Positions 11,176 through 24,066 of a DNA stretch of 64,000 nucleotides are shown here, one piece after another (within the stretch, counting starts at the first letter, position 1; the number at the start of each line of letters is the position of its first letter). Source of the stretch: Halobellus sp. MBLA0158 (GTDB lineage Archaea; Halobacteriota; Halobacteria; Halobacteriales; Haloferacaceae); contig NZ_JBGNYA010000001.1 in NCBI RefSeq assembly GCF_041477585.1, positions 2,790,001 to 2,854,000 of the forward strand. The letters run 5' to 3'. A model generated the notes under the pieces. It was not told the DNA's origin and made no database searches. It saw only the letters and a list, made by a program, of their open reading frames with translations. Made by a program: the position numbers and the translations under genes.

Positions 11176-12375
11176 ATGCTCCGGGTGAGAGACGACACGT
11201 CCGTGATCGTCGCGACGATCCTCTCGGTGCTCGGGTTCGTGCTGGCCGCCGCCGTCACGCAGACGAAGGGGCTCCGGCTCGGCGGGGCGATACTGGTGCC
11301 GACGCTCGTCGTCTACGCGCTCAAGGACTTCGAGACGCTGCCGATCTTCCTCTTCAGCACGGCGGTCGCCTACCTCGTGCTGTGGCAGGCCAAAGAGCGG
11401 ACGCTGGCTTACGGTCGCGACGAGTTTCTCATCGCCATCGGAGCGGGCGCGCTCATCCCCGTGGCCGGGTTCCTCGTGATCGCGTGGGTGTCGCCGGGGT
11501 TCGTCGAGGTCCACCCCCTCGTGTTCGCCGGCAGCATCCTCCCCGGGCTGGCGGCGTTCAACGTCTCCCAGACGAAACCGGAGTACCGGCGGCAGGACCT
11601 CGCGTACCTGTCGGCCCTCGTGGTCGGCCTCGTCCTCCTCGGCTGGCTCGTGATCCGACCCTGGACGGCGCGGCACGTCGCCGACCTGACGCCGCTGGTC
11701 CTGTTCGCGAAGACGTCCGACGTCGCCGTGCTCAACGGGGTCGTGGTCGAGGGCTACCTCGCGCCGAACATCATCGAGCGGCGGGGCGTCATCGCCCTGT
11801 TCGTCCTCGGGGCGGCGATGGCCGAATTCGTCCGCCGGCAGTTCGGCGTCCGGATCGGCATCATCTCGATGGCGCTCCTGGCGCTTTTCGCGCTCGTCTC
11901 GCGGTGGCTCCTCGTCCTCTTCGTGCTCTCGTTCGTCGTCTCGCTCCTGGCGATGCACCTCGTACACCGGGCGACGCTGCTGTACGGTCGCGTGCTCATC
12001 AACATCGGCTGTGCGGTCGGATGCCTGGCGGCGCTGCTTTTCACGACGCAGTTGCCCATCATCCGCGGCTTCTCCGCGCTCTTCGTCGGCGTCATCGCCG
12101 GCGTCGACGCCTACGCGGTCCACGCGACGCCCCCCTACGAGCGCCGGATCCAGCCGTTCCTGGCCGGGGCGGTGTTCCTCGGGATGGCGCTGCTCCTGCG
12201 GACCGCCGTCGAGCCGTTCCGTCGGGGGCTCTTCCAGACGTTCTCGCTCGTCCACGTCGCCGTCGGGGCCGTCGTGATCCTCGGGTGTCTCCTGGTCGCC
12301 TACACCCTCTCCGTTCCCGAACCGGACGACGAGGACGTCCTCTCGGCGTCGGTGCTCTCGGGGGGTGAGGGCTGA
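11176..12375 (+). CDS. pgsC: PgsC/CapC-like poly-gamma-glutamate biosynthesis membrane protein
   Basis: A 399-aa integral membrane protein with about ten hydrophobic segments. Each half carries a PgsC-type pattern (GLRLGGAILVPTLVVYALKDF and RRGVIALFVLGAAMAEFVRR), so it looks like two PgsC-like units joined; bacterial PgsC is only about 150 aa. It should form the membrane part of a poly-gamma-glutamate synthase/export complex. Its TGA shares one base with the ATG of the PgsB-like ligase, which is the strongest evidence for the call. No PgsA or PgsE gene is seen nearby. The ATG at 11176 lies in a TATA-like context, so a downstream GTG could be the true start. Confidence 0.8.
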   Translation: MLRVRDDTSVIVATILSVLGFVLAAAVTQTKGLRLGGAILVPTLVVYALKDFETLPIFLFSTAVAYLVLWQAKERTLAYGRDEFLIAIGAGALIPVAGFLVIAWVSPGFVEVHPLVFAGSILPGLAAFNVSQTKPEYRRQDLAYLSALVVGLVLLGWLVIRPWTARHVADLTPLVLFAKTSDVAVLNGVVVEGYLAPNIIERRGVIALFVLGAAMAEFVRRQFGVRIGIISMALLALFALVSRWLLVLFVLSFVVSLLAMHLVHRATLLYGRVLINIGCAVGCLAALLFTTQLPIIRGFSALFVGVIAGVDAYAVHATPPYERRIQPFLAGAVFLGMALLLRTAVEPFRRGLFQTFSLVHVAVGAVVILGCLLVAYTLSVPEPDDEDVLSASVLSGGEG

Positions 12376-13574
12376 TGTTCCCCTTCGACGGGACCCTCAC
12401 CTACGGCGGCCGCTCTGTCGGCGGGGCTGGCCCGCTCGAACGGATCCGGTCGTTCTTCGGGCGAGGTGGGGCCCACCGCGAACTGCTGGCCGACGCGGAC
12501 GTCCGCATCAGCGTCTCCGGCATCCGGGGCAAGTCCTCGACGGCGAAGCGTCTGGGGGCGCTCCTCAGCGACCGCGGCTACGACACCTACACGAAGATCA
12601 CCGGCGATCACCCGACCTCGTTCCACAACGGGCGACAGATCCCGATCCAGCGTCGCGGCCCGCGGGTGACGCTGTACGAGAACCTCCACCTCGTCAGGGA
12701 GTTCCTGCCGCAGCTGACTCAGACGCACCCGAAGGACGCCGTGATTATGGAGAATCAGGCGATCACCGAGTACACGATGCGGATGGTGAACGAGCAGTTC
12801 CTCAAGCCCGACGTCCTGCTGTTCTGCAACGTCCGCCAAGACCACAACGACACGCTCGGCAAGCGCCGCCAGACCATCGCGCGCTCGTTCGCGCGGTCGG
12901 TCCCGGAGGGGTGTCACGTCATCAGCGGCGAGCAGCACGGTGTCATCCACGACTACCTCGAAGACGAGATCGAGGCCCGCGGCGGGACCATCGAACAGGT
13001 GTCCGTGCCGGACCGCCACCGGAGCCTCACGGGCGCGGAGACGATCCACGCGCTGAATCACGTGCTCGACTACCTCGACGAGCCGCCGATCCCGGACGCG
13101 GAGCTGGACGCGATGCTCGAAGACATCCAGCCCGAGTGGACCGAGCTGCCGGGGGGACGGGTGTTCAACGCCGCGAAGGTGAACGAGATCGAGAGCACCG
13201 AGCTGTTCCGCCGGCAGCTCGCCGGCACGGGCGACGACGCGGAGCTCGTCTGTCCGTTCGTCTTCCTCCGGCGGGACCGCCGCGGCCGGACGGCGTCGTT
13301 CGTCCAGTACATCAACATCCTCGCGGACCGCGACCTCATCGATCGGGTCCACGTCGGCGGCGCGTACACGGAGGTGTTCGCCCGCCGCGTCGACGTCCCG
13401 GCGACGCGGCACGACACCGACGCGACCGACCCGGAAGACGTGCTCGACGCGCTGCTCGCGACGGGGCAGCCGGTGATGTTTATGGCGAACACCGTCCACC
13501 CGTTTATGCGGAAGCTCGCGACCGAGGTCGAACGGCGCGAACACGGCGGAACGGTACCGCTACCGCCGTACTGA
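12375..13574 (+). CDS. pgsB: PgsB/CapB-like poly-gamma-glutamate synthase (Mur-ligase fold)
   Basis: An ATP-dependent amide ligase of 399 aa, expected to join glutamates through their gamma-carboxyl groups at the inner face of the membrane. The P-loop GIRGKSSTAKR at residues about 49-59 is the PgsB form of the Mur-ligase ATP site. Other family-like parts are TKITGDHPTSFHNGRQIPIQ, VIMENQAITEYTMRMVN and LLFCNVRQDHNDTLG. Bacterial PgsB has a similar length. It overlaps the PgsC stop by one base. The substrate is inferred from the family; in haloarchaea the product could be a capsule or a compatible polymer. Confidence 0.85.
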   Translation: MFPFDGTLTYGGRSVGGAGPLERIRSFFGRGGAHRELLADADVRISVSGIRGKSSTAKRLGALLSDRGYDTYTKITGDHPTSFHNGRQIPIQRRGPRVTLYENLHLVREFLPQLTQTHPKDAVIMENQAITEYTMRMVNEQFLKPDVLLFCNVRQDHNDTLGKRRQTIARSFARSVPEGCHVISGEQHGVIHDYLEDEIEARGGTIEQVSVPDRHRSLTGAETIHALNHVLDYLDEPPIPDAELDAMLEDIQPEWTELPGGRVFNAAKVNEIESTELFRRQLAGTGDDAELVCPFVFLRRDRRGRTASFVQYINILADRDLIDRVHVGGAYTEVFARRVDVPATRHDTDATDPEDVLDALLATGQPVMFMANTVHPFMRKLATEVERREHGGTVPLPPY

Positions 13575-13831: not shown

Positions 13832-14941
13832 ATGTCAGCCACCGAATCAGCGCCGATCCGGCGGAGCATCGAAGTCGAGTACTGGGTCGTCGACGAGACG
13901 GGGCGGTTGACCGAGCCCGGCGATCTCGCGTCCGCGACGGGCGCCGAGCGGGAGTTCGTCGAGCCGCTCTTGGAGATCAAGACCACGCCCTGCGAGTCGG
14001 CGGCGGCCCTCAGAGCGGAGTTGCTCGAACGGATCCGCGAGGTGCTCCGGCTGGCCGAGGAGCGCGGAAAGCGGCTCGTCCCGCTGGCGACGCCGGCCGC
14101 CCGCGAGGAGATCACAGAGCTGGACAGCGAGCGCACCAGCGTCCAAAACGAAGTCGTCGGCGAGGACTTCGAGCACGTGCGACACTGCGCGGGGACCCAC
14201 ATCCACGTGGAACAGCAGCCCGGCTGTGCGGTCGATCAGGCGAACGCGTTCGTCGCGCTCGACCCCGCGCTGGCGCTCGTGAACTCCTCGCCGTACGTCG
14301 GCGGCCGCCGGGTGACTGCGGGGGCGCGCTCGGAACTGTACCGTCGGCGCGCGTACGCGACGATGTCCCACCAGGGCCGCCTGTGGCGGTACCTCGACGA
14401 CACCGACCAGTGGGATCGGCGGCTCGAACGGCGGTACGAGGAGTTCGTCGCGGAGGCGCTGGCGGCCGGAATCGACCGGCAGACGGTCGAGGCGAACTTC
14501 TCGCCGGAGAGCGCGGTGTGGACGCCGGTGCAACTTCGAGCCCGGTTCGGCACCGTGGAGTGGCGCTCGCCCGACACGGCGCTGCCGTCCCAGGTGCTCC
14601 GGCTGGCGGACCGACTGGCCGCGATCTCGGCGACCGTCCGCGACGCGGAGGTGCGGATCGAGGGCCAGCGGGGCGAGGTGTCCGACGAGGCGGTCGTCCT
14701 CCCGGAGTTCGCGACCGTGCTCTCCCACGTCGACGACGCGATCGAGAAGGGCCTCGCCTCGGAGTCACTTCGGCGGTATCTCGACCGGATGGGCTTCGAC
14801 GTCAATGCCTACGATCCCCTCACGCAAGAGGTGGATCGAGGTCGGGAGCTGTCGGACGCGGCGGCGCGGGAACTCCGGCTGGAATCCGCCGAGCGACTCG
14901 AACGCGACGCATTCCGACGGAGCGCGATCAATGCGGACTGA
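13832..14941 (+). CDS. gshA: Glutamate-cysteine ligase (haloarchaeal GshA, GCS2 type)
   Basis: Makes gamma-glutamylcysteine from glutamate, cysteine and ATP; this is the main low-molecular-weight thiol of many haloarchaea. The protein has 369 aa and the GCS2 (carboxylate-amine ligase) pattern: SIEVEYWVVDETGRL at the start, FVEPLLEIKTTPCES, CAGTHIHVEQQPG with the His pair, NSSPYVGGRR and FGTVEWRSPDTALPS. The ATG at 13832 is chosen because the conserved IEVEYW strand begins soon after it; an in-frame GTG at 13742 would add an unlike 30 residues. The next gene, a class I amidotransferase, starts 11 bases before the stop. Confidence 0.88.
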   Translation: MSATESAPIRRSIEVEYWVVDETGRLTEPGDLASATGAEREFVEPLLEIKTTPCESAAALRAELLERIREVLRLAEERGKRLVPLATPAAREEITELDSERTSVQNEVVGEDFEHVRHCAGTHIHVEQQPGCAVDQANAFVALDPALALVNSSPYVGGRRVTAGARSELYRRRAYATMSHQGRLWRYLDDTDQWDRRLERRYEEFVAEALAAGIDRQTVEANFSPESAVWTPVQLRARFGTVEWRSPDTALPSQVLRLADRLAAISATVRDAEVRIEGQRGEVSDEAVVLPEFATVLSHVDDAIEKGLASESLRRYLDRMGFDVNAYDPLTQEVDRGRELSDAAARELRLESAERLERDAFRRSAINAD

Positions 14942-15791
14942 GATCGGCGACCGAGACCGAGAGACGATGCGCGCGGACGCGGACGGAGATCCGAACGGAG
15001 ACGAAAAGGGGAACGACCGGCACACCAGCGGCGGCGCCGACGACTCGGCGACCGAGGGGACGAGTATCGAGGAGCGACGGCCGAGCGAGCCGCAGGGCGA
15101 CCGCCCGCGGATCGCGCTCCTGAACGCCGCGCAGCTCGCGGAACCGACGCGGCGGAATTTCCGGCGGGTGTTGGACGCCGACCTGACGGCGTTTCACGCC
15201 CCGTCGGGAGAGCTCCCCGAGAGCCTCCGCTACGACGGCGTCGTCATCACGGGGTCGTGGGCGTCGGTCTACTGGGACCGCGAGTGGATCGGCCGGCTGA
15301 AGGCGTGGATCGGCGACGCCGTCGAGGCCGGCGTCCCGACGCTCGGCGTCTGCTACGGCCACCAGCTGCTCGCGGACGTCCTCGGGGGCCGCGTGGCATC
15401 GATGGACGAGTACGAACTCGGCTATCGGACCGTCGAGCAGGACGGCGAGAACCGCCTGCTCGACGGCCTCGACGAGACGTTCACGGTGTTCACCTCCCAC
15501 TCCGATCGGGTCGTCGAGGCCCCGCCGGGCGCGACGGTGTTCGCGAGAAACGACTACGGGATTCACGGCTTCCGTCGCGGCCGCGTCTTCGGCGTCCAGT
15601 TCCATCCGGAGTACGATCCGGAGATGGCCGAGCGCGTGACGCGTCGGAAGGACGACCAACTGCCCGACGAGCGGATCCGATCCGTGCTCGACGGGATCAC
15701 GCCGGCGAACTACGCGGCCGCTCGCGAGGCGACGCGGCTGTTCGACAACTTCACCGAATACGTGCTGGACGCATCACGAAGAACGGAGTAG
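14931..15791 (+). CDS. Class I glutamine amidotransferase-like protein
   Basis: A 286-aa protein with a disordered acidic first 55 residues and then a class I amidotransferase domain. The nucleophile Cys141 sits in PTLGVCYGHQLLADVLGG, and the His/Glu pair lies in VQFHPEYDPE (His225, Glu227). The subgroup is the GMP-synthase-like set without an attached synthetase. It overlaps gshA by 11 bases, so the two are translationally coupled. Plant gamma-glutamyl peptidases belong to this fold, so cleavage of gamma-glutamyl thiols is an attractive but unproven role. The start could also be the ATG at 14967. Its stop lies three bases before attL of the integrated element. Confidence 0.82.
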   Translation: MRTEIGDRDRETMRADADGDPNGDEKGNDRHTSGGADDSATEGTSIEERRPSEPQGDRPRIALLNAAQLAEPTRRNFRRVLDADLTAFHAPSGELPESLRYDGVVITGSWASVYWDREWIGRLKAWIGDAVEAGVPTLGVCYGHQLLADVLGGRVASMDEYELGYRTVEQDGENRLLDGLDETFTVFTSHSDRVVEAPPGATVFARNDYGIHGFRRGRVFGVQFHPEYDPEMAERVTRRKDDQLPDERIRSVLDGITPANYAAAREATRLFDNFTEYVLDASRRTE

Positions 15792-15793
15792 TG

Positions 15794-15830
15794 CGGATGG
15801 GACCGCCCGGATTCGAACCGGGGTCACGGG
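15794..15830. repeat. attL: 37-bp copy of the tRNA-Pro 3' end
   Basis: This is a perfect 37-base match to 23990-24026. It contains the last 33 bases of tRNA-Pro (T arm, variable loop and 3' half of the anticodon stem) and four flanking bases. There is no 5' half here, so it is not a tRNA gene. It marks the left junction of the integrated element, next to the integrase gene. Confidence 0.9.
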
Positions 15831-15886: not shown

Positions 15887-16912
15887 ATGAGCGAAGAACT
15901 CGAACCCATTTCGCCTGCTGAGGCGAAGGAGATGTACCTGAACGCGAGAGAGCACGAACTATCACAATCCTCTCTCGACAGCTATCACTACCGACTGAAG
16001 CATTTCATTCGGTGGTGTGAGGAAGTCGAGGGAATCGAGAATATGAACGACCTCTCCGGTCGAGATCTACAGCGGTACAAGACTTGGCGGAGAGACGACG
16101 GCGATTTGAAGCCGGTGACCTTGGATGGCCAACTCGATGCGCTTCGGGTTTTCATCCGTTGGTGCGAATCCATCGACGCAGTTGAACAGGATCTTCACCA
16201 GAAATTCAAAGCGCTGATGCCGAATCTCAATAGAGGCGATCAGCAATCTGAGGATATCCTCACGACCGATGAAGCAGAGATGCTCCTCGAATACCAGCGG
16301 AAATTTGAGTACGCTTCTCGATCCCACGTTATCATCGAAATCTTGTGGCATACCGGGATTCGCCTCGGAGCGCTTCATTCTCTAGACGTGGATGACTACG
16401 ATCCGGAGGCTGAACGGCTGGAGTTCCACCATCGACCTGATTCAGGGACGCGACTGAAAAACGGCTCCGAGGGCGAGCGAATGGTTGCTCTTGATGCAGA
16501 TGTTTGTCGTGTCATCGAAGATTGGATCGAATACCATCGCCACGACGTAGAGGACGAATATGGGCGGGAACCCCTAATCACGACGAGAAACAGCCGACTC
16601 AATAAGACGAATATCAGAGATGCGGTCTATCGGGTTACTCGCCCCTGCTACTATGGGGAAGATTGCCCGAAGGGACGCGATCCTGACGACTGCGAGGCTA
16701 CCACTTACCCAGACTACTGTAGATGTCCGGTGAATGTATCAACTCACGCTATCCGCCGGGGATCAATCACTCACTTCCTGACCGAAGATGTGCCCGAGAA
16801 GGTTGTTTCTGATCGAATGAATGTGGGGCAGGACGTTCTGGACAAGCATTATGACAAGCGCGATGAAGAGGTGAAGGTCGAGCAGAGACGAGGATATCTT
16901 AACAATATCTAA
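15887..16912 (+). CDS. int: Tyrosine recombinase (element integrase)
   Basis: Catalyses site-specific insertion and excision of the element at the tRNA-Pro 3' end. The protein has 341 aa. The N-terminal SAM-like core-binding domain covers about residues 8-112 and the catalytic domain the rest. Catalytic residues can be read: Arg159 in HTGIRLGALHSLDV, the His287-x-x-Arg290 box in STHAIRRGSITHFL, and the nucleophile Tyr322 in DKHYDKR. A five-Cys insert at about 254-280 (CYYGEDC...CEA...CRCP) precedes the HxxR box and could bind zinc. It starts 57 bases inside attL, the usual place for an integrase. An in-frame ATG at 15866 is the alternative start. Confidence 0.92.
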   Translation: MSEELEPISPAEAKEMYLNAREHELSQSSLDSYHYRLKHFIRWCEEVEGIENMNDLSGRDLQRYKTWRRDDGDLKPVTLDGQLDALRVFIRWCESIDAVEQDLHQKFKALMPNLNRGDQQSEDILTTDEAEMLLEYQRKFEYASRSHVIIEILWHTGIRLGALHSLDVDDYDPEAERLEFHHRPDSGTRLKNGSEGERMVALDADVCRVIEDWIEYHRHDVEDEYGREPLITTRNSRLNKTNIRDAVYRVTRPCYYGEDCPKGRDPDDCEATTYPDYCRCPVNVSTHAIRRGSITHFLTEDVPEKVVSDRMNVGQDVLDKHYDKRDEEVKVEQRRGYLNNI

Positions 16913-16998: not shown

Positions 16999-18711
16999 TT
17001 AGGTGGTGTGTGAGTCACCAGTTTTGATCGCCATATCTACCAGTTCATAATTACCCTCTATGTGATCATAGAACTGCTTCCGTCTTCCCAACTCATATTG
17101 TCTTAATGAATACGCAATTACAGCCTTAGTAAGCTCTCGCTCGGCCTCTCCATAGAGTACCTCAATACGTTCCCAATCAGAATAATCACCATACTCAGAG
17201 AGTATAGCAGTAGCATATTCTCGACTTTCAACCAATTCATTTCTTCTCCCGATCACTTGACGCGCACAATGAATAACTTCCGTTGAATTGAATTCTTCCT
17301 CAAAGAGCCACCTAAGTATCAGGAAATTGTGATAATTGTATCTCAATTCCTGATTAGCAACCGCTGATGCCATCCTTGCCGCGACCTCATCCTTATTGGG
17401 AAGATATTTGAAATAGTTATATAAGATCCTTCGAACATCTGCCTGACCATCTTTGATATAATCAATACAATAATCAATCGCAATCGTATCTTCTGCTTTT
17501 CCTAATCGGTTAATTATATATCTAAAAATATGAGTGTCAACATCTTTGAATTCTTTATCTTGGATGTGGCGTGAATATGCTTCTTGCAAATATTCCCGCT
17601 GCTCTTCAGTTATTTCATCATCTGAATCGTCAGCAGTTTCCGCCGAATCATCCTCTTCAGGTGGTAGACCCCCATCAGAAACTGTTTCACGATCCTCCGA
17701 CTCGGTACCGTAAGGAATTGTACCACCACTTACCGTGCGTGCATACTCTGCAGCAGCTTCGGCAAGTGATCGATCCGTAGTCTCAGTATCTTCTACCTCA
17801 TCGGAGTCATCTGCCTCTTGATCCCCCAGTTCTTCTTTTATTTGCTCAAAGGTCGCCTCCGGCTCGGCATAGGCCTGAAGAGCATCTATTGATGGCATAA
17901 TTTCCGTCTTTCCTGATTTCATATTCAGGCCTCGTATTCTGAATTCACGCTCCAGAAGGTTCTGCGCTTCAATTGCTGCATCCCGGGAGTCACAGAATAT
18001 AACAAAGTCATCGTTGTATCGGACGTGATCAAATCCGTTATTCTTGAGCCGTCTGTCTACCCCATCCAGATAAATTTCTGCAAGTATATCTGAGGGGCCA
18101 TAGCCCTGTGGGACACCCCGCTTACGTGGGTCTGCCCAAGGCCGGATTAAATGCCTAATTTCGTTTCCAACGTCTTGCCGATCAGTGAATTGTTTGAAAA
18201 TTGATGTGACCCTCTCAATATCGATATTTTCATAAAATCCAGACACATCCGTTTCCAATACATATTCGTTCTCTTCTGCAAGATCTATTTTCTTTTCTTG
18301 CATTTCTTTCCAATAGGGCTTCTCAAATTCATCCCATTGATTGCTATCTTCAATATCCTCTCGAAGTATATGCGAATAGCGACATTCTCCAGCCGACCAT
18401 TCAATTGAAGAACGCAATTCATCAAAGACTTCTAATATCAAAGCTGAATATACAACCAAATCTTCAGGATGTAGTACGCTAGCAGGGCGAAGATGGTAGT
18501 CCCTTTTTGGGACATCAATTATTCGTGGGGAGCGTGGATCAAATTCACCACATTCAAGAGTTTCTCGTAGATCTTCAAGCCAATCCTCCTTCTTATGCTC
18601 TAAAACACGGATAATATACGGGCTACTGATGAATGAATTCATATAGTGGCTATAATCTCGCTTCGTCTTCCTCCAAGCGAGGGTTAAATTCAGGCTCCCC
18701 GCGAAGTCCAT
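16999..18711 (-). CDS. Stand-alone reverse transcriptase, UG/Abi-like
   Basis: RNA-directed DNA polymerase of 570 aa from the ATG at 18711 (578 from an in-frame GTG at 18735). Numbering from the GTG, the RT motifs are: VPKRDYHLRPASVLHPEDL at about 75-92, the first catalytic Asp163 in ETDVSGFYENID, GVPQG at 207-211, and the active-site YNDD at 240-243. There is no maturase or HNH domain, so it is not a group II intron. After the palm comes an acidic Ser/Asp/Glu-rich spacer (about 303-377) and a helical C-terminal region of some 200 residues. That build recalls UG/Abi and DRT defence RTs with helical repeats. It is strongly AT-rich and converges on the integrase. A defence role is inference. 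Confidence 0.85.
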   Translation of the reverse strand: MDFAGSLNLTLAWRKTKRDYSHYMNSFISSPYIIRVLEHKKEDWLEDLRETLECGEFDPRSPRIIDVPKRDYHLRPASVLHPEDLVVYSALILEVFDELRSSIEWSAGECRYSHILREDIEDSNQWDEFEKPYWKEMQEKKIDLAEENEYVLETDVSGFYENIDIERVTSIFKQFTDRQDVGNEIRHLIRPWADPRKRGVPQGYGPSDILAEIYLDGVDRRLKNNGFDHVRYNDDFVIFCDSRDAAIEAQNLLEREFRIRGLNMKSGKTEIMPSIDALQAYAEPEATFEQIKEELGDQEADDSDEVEDTETTDRSLAEAAAEYARTVSGGTIPYGTESEDRETVSDGGLPPEEDDSAETADDSDDEITEEQREYLQEAYSRHIQDKEFKDVDTHIFRYIINRLGKAEDTIAIDYCIDYIKDGQADVRRILYNYFKYLPNKDEVAARMASAVANQELRYNYHNFLILRWLFEEEFNSTEVIHCARQVIGRRNELVESREYATAILSEYGDYSDWERIEVLYGEAERELTKAVIAYSLRQYELGRRKQFYDHIEGNYELVDMAIKTGDSHTT

Positions 18712-18845
18712 ATACACCCCATTCAACTCAAACACAATGAATTTTAGACCCTCTAAATGCTGATTTCCACTTCTCTCATAGCCGGTATTTATCGACTCTC
18801 GTCGCCCAGCGCCATCTTCTTGGATGTCAATTCACGTGATATGGT
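18712..18845. other. Divergent intergenic region between RT and zinc-motif gene
   Basis: A 134-base gap separates two divergent genes. A minus-strand GATAAATACC at about 18785-18794 is a candidate TATA box for the RT gene, giving a leader of about 50 bases. Several defence RTs use an adjacent structured RNA as template or effector. I see no strong hairpin here, but the leader is the first place to look. Confidence 0.35.
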
Positions 18846-23989: not shown

Positions 23990-24026
23990 CGGATGGGACC
24001 GCCCGGATTCGAACCGGGGTCACGGG
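23990..24026. repeat. attR: 37-bp repeat within tRNA-Pro
   Basis: This is the perfect partner of 15794-15830. It overlaps the last 33 bases of the intact tRNA-Pro gene plus four bases past its 3' end. The element therefore restored the tRNA gene on integration, as usual for tyrosine integrases that use tRNA 3' ends. Confidence 0.9.
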
Positions 24027-24066
24027 CACCCAAGGCCCGAAGTATACCAGGCTAACCCACGGTCCC
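23994..24066 (-). tRNA. tRNA-Pro (anticodon UGG)
   Basis: A 73-nt tRNA on the minus strand. The acceptor arms GGGACCG and CGGTCCC pair, the T arm is CCCGG-TTCGAAT-CCGGG, and the anticodon stem CGGGC/GCCCG encloses the loop CTTGGGT, giving anticodon TGG. The discriminator base is A, CCA is not encoded and no intron is present. Its 3' half is the attachment site of the integrated element. A TATA-like box lies 25-30 bases upstream, so the gene should still be expressed. Confidence 0.95.

Follow-up and report, generated by a model that had tools for sequence, protein, structure and literature searches.

A divergent glutamate-cysteine-ligase-family paralogue and its linked amidotransferase-fold partner: a candidate gamma-glutamyl ligase/hydrolase module of Halobacteria

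Haloarchaea have gamma-glutamylcysteine in place of glutathione. Glutamyl ligases of the GS/GCS superfamily are encoded together with a GAT-like or similar hydrolase in several described systems, AtdA1/AtdA2, NpaA1/NpaA2 and PuuA/PuuD. An account of aniline and 1-naphthylamine breakdown describes the GAT-like enzyme as keeping a toxic gamma-glutamyl intermediate low, and as non-essential (PMC11335346); PuuA and PuuD are described as acting in putrescine breakdown, and GlnA-2 of Haloferax mediterranei as a glutamate-putrescine ligase (both PMC8394153). Plant gamma-glutamyl peptidase 1 (GGP1) is reported to have glutathione conjugates as its substrates (PMC6243137), and gamma-glutamylcysteine is given as a major thiol in halobacteria (PMC7278568; PMC3102087). 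Here we describe a two-gene locus in Halobellus sp. MBLA0158, within a window of 64,000 nucleotides (contig NZ_JBGNYA010000001.1, positions 2,790,001 to 2,854,000), and compare it with these systems. Our best reading, to which we give roughly even odds (about 0.5), is that the locus encodes a module of a gamma-glutamyl ligase and a matching hydrolase, probably acting on a substrate other than cysteine.

The first gene (13832..14941, + strand) encodes a divergent carboxylate-amine ligase of the glutamate-cysteine ligase family, 369 residues long, assigned from PF04107, its core residues and its predicted structure; we call this divergent GCS2-family paralogue of the window GCS2-B. Its PF04107 score of 45.7-47.8 bits, against a gathering cut-off of 21, places it in the GCS2 family, and every match to the NCBIfam models falls below cut-off: TIGR02050, the YbdK subfamily, gives 43.9 bits where 176.4 are required, and the GshA model NF010045 (equivalog cut-off 395 bits) is absent from its NCBIfam matches at E 0.001. 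The earlier note had called this gene gshA. A PF04107 scan of the genome returned two genes, the window gene and one at C1:897099-897938 (230 bits), and the protein encoded at this other locus (C1:897057-898130) reaches 631.7 bits on NF010045, making it the GshA orthologue of the genome and, going by that model, presumably the orthologue of HVO_1668. With GCS2-B below the NCBIfam cut-offs and a separate GshA scoring so high, we reject the gshA identity of 13832-14941; by these scores GCS2-B is a paralogue that coexists with GshA, not its orthologue, and a tblastn search with the GCS2-B protein gave no match to the GshA locus at E 1e-3. All 391 Halobacteria searched have a GshA match at E 1e-60 or better, so that gamma-glutamylcysteine needs no second enzyme. 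GCS2-B, unlike GshA, is patchy, with a match in 197/391 genomes, of which a handful are weak (E 1e-20 to 1e-4).

Eight core residues of GCS2-B (E14, E16, E48, H123, H125, R166, E243 and R245), which we take to correspond to the known metal and phosphate ligands of GCS, are invariant among 30 aligned relatives and, in alignment, are common to the true GshA of the same genome. The predicted structure (pLDDT 89) has YbdK as its nearest fold, followed by plant and E. coli glutamate-cysteine ligases; YbdK 1r8g is matched with a Foldseek E of 1.1e-11, a TM of 0.64 and 17% identity, and glutamine synthetases and GmaS align weakly to the model. Searched against PDB sequences, GCS2-B returned zero phmmer matches at E 1, and a GCS2-B profile returned YbdK-type matches at E 0.001 to 0.006 together with chance-level rows. 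From the retained core and these nearest folds we infer that GCS2-B probably remains active as a ligase, though on another acceptor. We know of no amidotransferase partner for YbdK. Decaying copies of GCS2-B also occur, one split over two frames and adjoining an intact GAT-A (L090; G239:C7), the other with one in-frame TAA (G112:C11:188015-189121).

The second gene, GAT-A (14931..15791, + strand), encodes a class I glutamine-amidotransferase-fold enzyme of 286 residues counted from ATG 14931, assigned from PF00117, its clade and its structural model. The class I amidotransferase and the Cys-His-Glu triad that the earlier note had recognized here are both borne out: PF00117 scores 85.3 bits against a cut-off of 22.8, and the triad consists of Cys 141, the nucleophile (TGC, 15351..15353), His 225 (15603-15605) and Glu 227 (15609-15611; the latter two within 15603..15611), all on the + strand, with codons verified in the DNA. 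The three residues are invariant (C85, H169 and E171) in A1, an alignment of 25 GATases from pair loci. PF07722 (Peptidase C26, the PuuD-type hydrolase family) also exceeds its gathering cut-off, with 29.9 against 20.5 bits, a membership that the better fit to PF00117 makes ambiguous. The top NCBIfam name is "glutamine amidotransferase", at a score under cut-off, and the GMP synthase subunit A equivalogs fall short of theirs (NF001975, 75.8 of 198 bits; TIGR00888, 92.1 of 172.15 bits).

In-frame ATGs stand at 14805, 14931 and 14967. The first ~56 residues from ATG 14931 are unconserved and most relatives align from about residue 57, near 15099, the conserved domain being placed at 15099..15788 (+) from A1 and the relatives' alignment starts. 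The 11-base overlap with GCS2-B reported in the earlier note holds if translation begins at ATG 14931, and a 25-base gap, from ATG 14967, is equally possible; with alternative ATGs and conservation only from about 15099, the exact overlap is uncertain.

The predicted structure of GAT-A (pLDDT 94.8) is nearest to Arabidopsis GGP1 (9k7i; Foldseek E 5e-20), in keeping with the likeness to plant gamma-glutamyl peptidases suggested previously, and the match extends over the full-length fold (VIA-align Z 27.6, rmsd 2.1, 222 residues aligned, 24% identity). The runners-up TM1158, 3m3p, DnfC and MsGATase follow at Z 25.9 to 24.7, that is 1.7 to 2.9 lower, so that the margin of GGP1 is small; likeness of a predicted model to GGP1 does not by itself give GAT-A its function.

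GAT-A belongs to a crowded family: at E 1e-3 related proteins match in 391/391 genomes, commonly several in each, and at E 1e-80 or better close relatives turn up in 372/391. We speak of GAT-A only for proteins scoring at least 416 bits with profile A1, made from 25 partners, an ad hoc threshold that gives 43/391 genomes and leaves out the two proteins that come next, an additional GATase in G229 (414 bits) and the G377 GATase (401 bits), the latter with no GCS2-B adjoining. In a tree of 58 GATases, 27 of 28 GCS2-B partners fall in one clade (support 0.85), inside which several unlinked members also lie; a 57% identical paralogue in the Halobellus genome itself (L006) stands outside that partner clade, and the solo GATases L149 and L150 stand outside both groups of the tree, in which the 28th partner (L042), mis-cut to 30 residues, has a void placement and the midpoint rooting is affected. 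Additional GATases occur near some GAT-A genes. In the Halonotius/Halohasta group a second, distant class I GATase, GMP synthase subunit A-like by eye, lies near GAT-A (L210, L215, L219, L223 and L225), and at five loci with an unlinked GAT-A (L089, L253, L255, L257 and L258) a 26-29% identical relative lies ~3 to 5 kb off.

The linkage of GCS2-B and GAT-A is conserved, optional and above chance. GCS2-B adjoins GAT-A in 28 of the 43 GAT-A genomes, 24 times with the GATase following on the same strand (once behind a broken GCS2-B, the two-frame copy at L090, which we count among the 28) and four times divergently. Of the 15 unpaired genomes, twelve match GCS2-B elsewhere and three not at all; GCS2-B is absent from the DNA fetched around GAT-A in all 15. 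An independent set, the best 80 GCS2-B loci in named genomes, contains the pair at 30, the GATase lying downstream on the same strand in 28 and divergent in 2; the GATases of these 30 may not all belong to the GAT-A clade (that of L206 is only 62% identical). The conservation of the pair in Halobacteria that the earlier note had put up for checking thus extends to many genera without being universal: the pair is found, among others, in Halobellus clavatus, Natronorubrum, Halorientalis, Halorhabdus, Natronococcus, Halohasta, Halonotius and Haloglomus, and in MAGs that their record titles assign to Haloplanus and Natronomonas. Across the 30 pair loci any other neighbour family recurs in at most 5, all five of them in the Halonotius/Halohasta group, so that the pair persists while its flanks change; oxygenase or oxidase genes, which would complete a Puu-like set, are not recurrent among these 30.

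GCS2-B is also common without a linked GATase, so the hydrolase is not obligatory: 80 of the 107 loci examined have no such GATase within 300 bases, a set in which 16 loci have only 1.5 kb of flank and from which L090 and superseded duplicate loci are excluded. Because 25 of the 60 fetched regions, which also lie inside the 107, were picked for a visible pair, we take pairing rates from the 28/43 and 30/80 sets. A GCS2-B match is present in 40/43 GAT-A genomes against 157/348 others (Fisher p 3e-10, uncorrected for kinship), and within 3 kb of GCS2-B at 110 distinct loci a GATase is the commonest neighbour (39/110), followed by genes that we named by eye as aldo/keto-reductase-like (13/110) and short-chain-dehydrogenase-like (9/110). 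An aldo/keto-reductase-like gene lies within 4 kb of a GATase-less GCS2-B at six loci of Natrinema and Haloarcula (L176, L178, L179, L186, L187 and L188); its product is possibly another GCS2-B partner. Among the 50 named loci with unlinked GCS2-B, 47 could be scored, and the top neighbour families occur in 7, all of them Haloferax plus Halogeometricum. A scan for promoters and terminators yielded nothing informative; sigma-70 patterns are inapplicable to archaea.

Upstream of the pair in the window (11176-13574, + strand) lie adjoining pgsC-like (Caps_synth_CapC, 77.2 bits) and pgsB-like (TIGR04012, 80.6 bits, below cut-off) genes, the pgsB-like ligase gene ending 257 bases before GCS2-B. The earlier note had remarked that the nearby pgs genes also handle gamma-glutamyl bonds. 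When the window was compared with 60 fetched regions, neither gene had a homologue among the called genes there at 35% identity and 80 bits, and we reject a link to the pair on this ground. Its remark that the amidotransferase lacks a synthetase partner is right of the usual GATase partners and too sweeping otherwise, GCS2-B being itself a ligase and the pgsB-like ligase gene standing upstream. On the other side of the pair, perfect 37-base direct repeats at 15794-15830 and 23990-24026, the right copy covering the 3' end of tRNA-Pro(tgg) (23994-24066, - strand), enclose an integrase gene (~15887-16909), and together they indicate an ~8.2 kb element inserted in tRNA-Pro, whose left end lies 3 bases past the GAT-A stop. 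The element carries a reverse transcriptase gene (16999-18735, - strand; PF00078, 62.5 bits; PADLOC RT_UG21, 479.6 bits), a candidate defence reverse transcriptase on an archaeal integrated element.

Beyond the archaea, two MAG contigs of Bacteroidota carry GCS2-B together with a GATase, one labelled Salinivenus (L229) and one labelled Bacteroidetes SW_9_63_38 (L231). The latter has the bacterial genes for a RecA with the bacterial C-terminal domain, an RNase R-type protein and a DUF1015 protein; the last two of these are present on the former as well. In the trees of both genes the two bacterial copies are sisters and group with Halonotius/Halohasta loci (support 0.95 and 0.94). Two relatives (G463, locus L250; G547, locus L252) have the same DUF1015/RNase locus with no pair, and among 146 genomes sampled across the class around that of L231, a sample without the genome of L229, a strong GCS2-B match occurs only in the L231 genome, with one other, weak match at E 1e-6. 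A pair set amid bacterial genes, both members of which branch beside the same haloarchaeal clade, suggests that GCS2-B and the GATase moved to Bacteroidota as a unit, a single transfer being the simplest reading of the trees.

At L231 the pair sits between the DUF1015 gene and a gamma-glutamyl cyclotransferase-family gene (L231:8018-8542; PF06094, 50.2 bits), and at L229 a PF06094 gene likewise lies directly downstream, clipped by the contig end. Such a neighbour suggests gamma-glutamyl chemistry. We did not adopt it as part of the module, since a PF06094 gene is present at the same locus in the pair-less relatives (G463, with a short match in G547); it probably predates the pair at this place, and its adjacency may thus be accidental. 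Across the family of L231 a PF06094 gene is found in 4/27 genomes, one match being short and weak, and a search of 60 haloarchaeal genomes with the cyclotransferase protein (P0003), run with no positive control, gave zero matches.

What might the pair do? A conserved pair whose second member is modelled nearest to GGP1 makes the forming and breaking of a gamma-glutamyl bond the best reading. GCS2-B would couple, at the cost of ATP, an amine or a non-cysteine amino acid to the gamma-carboxyl of glutamate or to a similar carboxylate, and GAT-A would hydrolyse that gamma-glutamyl bond with its Cys-His-Glu triad; the pair might in this way protect or activate a compound and then release it, or keep a conjugate from building up to harmful levels. 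The data show what the genes are, that their catalytic residues are conserved, that the linkage is specific and conserved, and that the pair has apparently been transferred as one; what each enzyme does, which way the module runs in vivo and a substrate other than cysteine are inferred. The earlier note had proposed synthesis and turnover of gamma-glutamylcysteine or its conjugates; making and breaking of a gamma-glutamyl bond survives from that proposal, and gamma-glutamylcysteine as the shared substrate is disfavoured, because GCS2-B is a paralogue beside a separate GshA. The version closest to that proposal would make GCS2-B an additional gamma-glutamylcysteine synthetase, or one used conditionally, with the pair making and turning over gamma-glutamylcysteine, its disulfide or S-conjugates. 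GCS2-B does have the catalytic core of GshA, gamma-glutamylcysteine is described as a major halobacterial thiol (PMC7278568; PMC3102087), and GGP1 is described as working on glutathione conjugates (PMC6243137), but a separate GshA in every one of the 391 genomes, a PF04107 score of 45.7 bits against 230 for GshA with NCBIfam cut-offs unreached, and a distribution patchy where that of GshA is not, make this version improbable.

The chief rival holds that GAT-A hydrolyses glutamine and passes the ammonia to GCS2-B, which amidates a carboxylate; we consider it unlikely. Its appeal lies in the class I GATase domain with a full triad, in adjoining, mostly co-directional genes whose short spacing suits a two-subunit enzyme, in the weak alignment of the GCS2-B model to glutamine synthetases and GmaS, and in the glutamine amidotransferases that head the NCBIfam matches of GAT-A. 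Glutamine synthetase, moreover, has the GCS fold in common and ammonia as a substrate, so that an amidating pair is chemically sensible. To our knowledge, however, GCS-type enzymes take amino acids and not ammonia; the nearest fold of GAT-A is, by a small margin, that of a peptidase; and GAT-A is lacking from 157 of the 197 GCS2-B genomes, a pattern incompatible with an indispensable ammonia donor unless some paralogue takes over the role. With a close GATase relative in 372/391 genomes, that lack is not decisive against amidation. We regard it as quite improbable that the two genes are mere neighbours with a common regulator or habitat role, acting on different compounds. Their linkage is partial, with 80 of 107 GCS2-B loci unlinked and a non-adjacent GCS2-B match in 12 of the 43 GAT-A genomes, as neighbours of this kind would have it, but the pairing survives both with the GATase downstream and with the genes divergent while the flanks change, both bacterial genes trace to one haloarchaeal clade, and the paired GATases form one clade, though several unpaired ones lie inside it.

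Among the matches listed in the open-access literature we came across no account of a GCS2-type ligase as part of a glutamyl ligase/hydrolase pair, and no paper visibly on the GCS2-B/GAT-A pair. With a little less assurance than we give the ligase/hydrolase module itself, we suggest that a new GCS2 ligase subfamily and a GGP-like hydrolase make up an undescribed halophile cassette, which would make and unmake a metabolite other than gamma-glutamylcysteine and would have passed, both genes together, from Halonotius/Halohasta-like archaea to Salinibacter-like bacteria, beside a gamma-glutamyl cyclotransferase gene. A second GCS2-family ligase that is often encoded beside a peptidase-like protein, and that seems to have reached bacteria living in the same brines, would point to a further gamma-glutamyl metabolite. 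GCS2-B-like genes may receive the gshA label by family alone, though the searched genomes have GshA elsewhere, and as each protein is a single small domain, both activities are directly testable.

Set against known systems, GCS2-B has the GCS2 family and the eight core residues in common with haloarchaeal GshA (HVO_1668 type; NF010045 / PRK13518), from which it differs in locus, in being patchy where GshA is universal among the searched Halobacteria, and in scoring under the NF010045 cut-off. YbdK (TIGR02050; 1r8g) is its closest solved fold, yet GCS2-B lies far under the cut-off of that family. Glutamine-hydrolysing two-component ligases such as GMP synthase and MurT/GatD likewise have a class I GATase domain beside a ligase, but GAT-A stays under the GMP synthase cut-offs and the linked ligase is of the GCS2 rather than the ATP-pyrophosphatase or Mur type. 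GGP1, the nearest solved fold to GAT-A over nearly the whole length, has glutathione conjugates as substrates, whereas haloarchaea have gamma-glutamylcysteine, and the two proteins are 24% identical. The ligases of the Atd, Npa and Puu systems are of the glutamine synthetase type, whereas GCS2-B is a GCS2 protein, and oxygenase or oxidase genes are not recurrent at the haloarchaeal pair loci. The haloarchaeal pair has in common with them a ligase genetically linked to a GAT-like hydrolase, a partial linkage seen at 30/80 loci, and its optional nature fits a hydrolase that is non-essential, as described for aniline and 1-naphthylamine breakdown.
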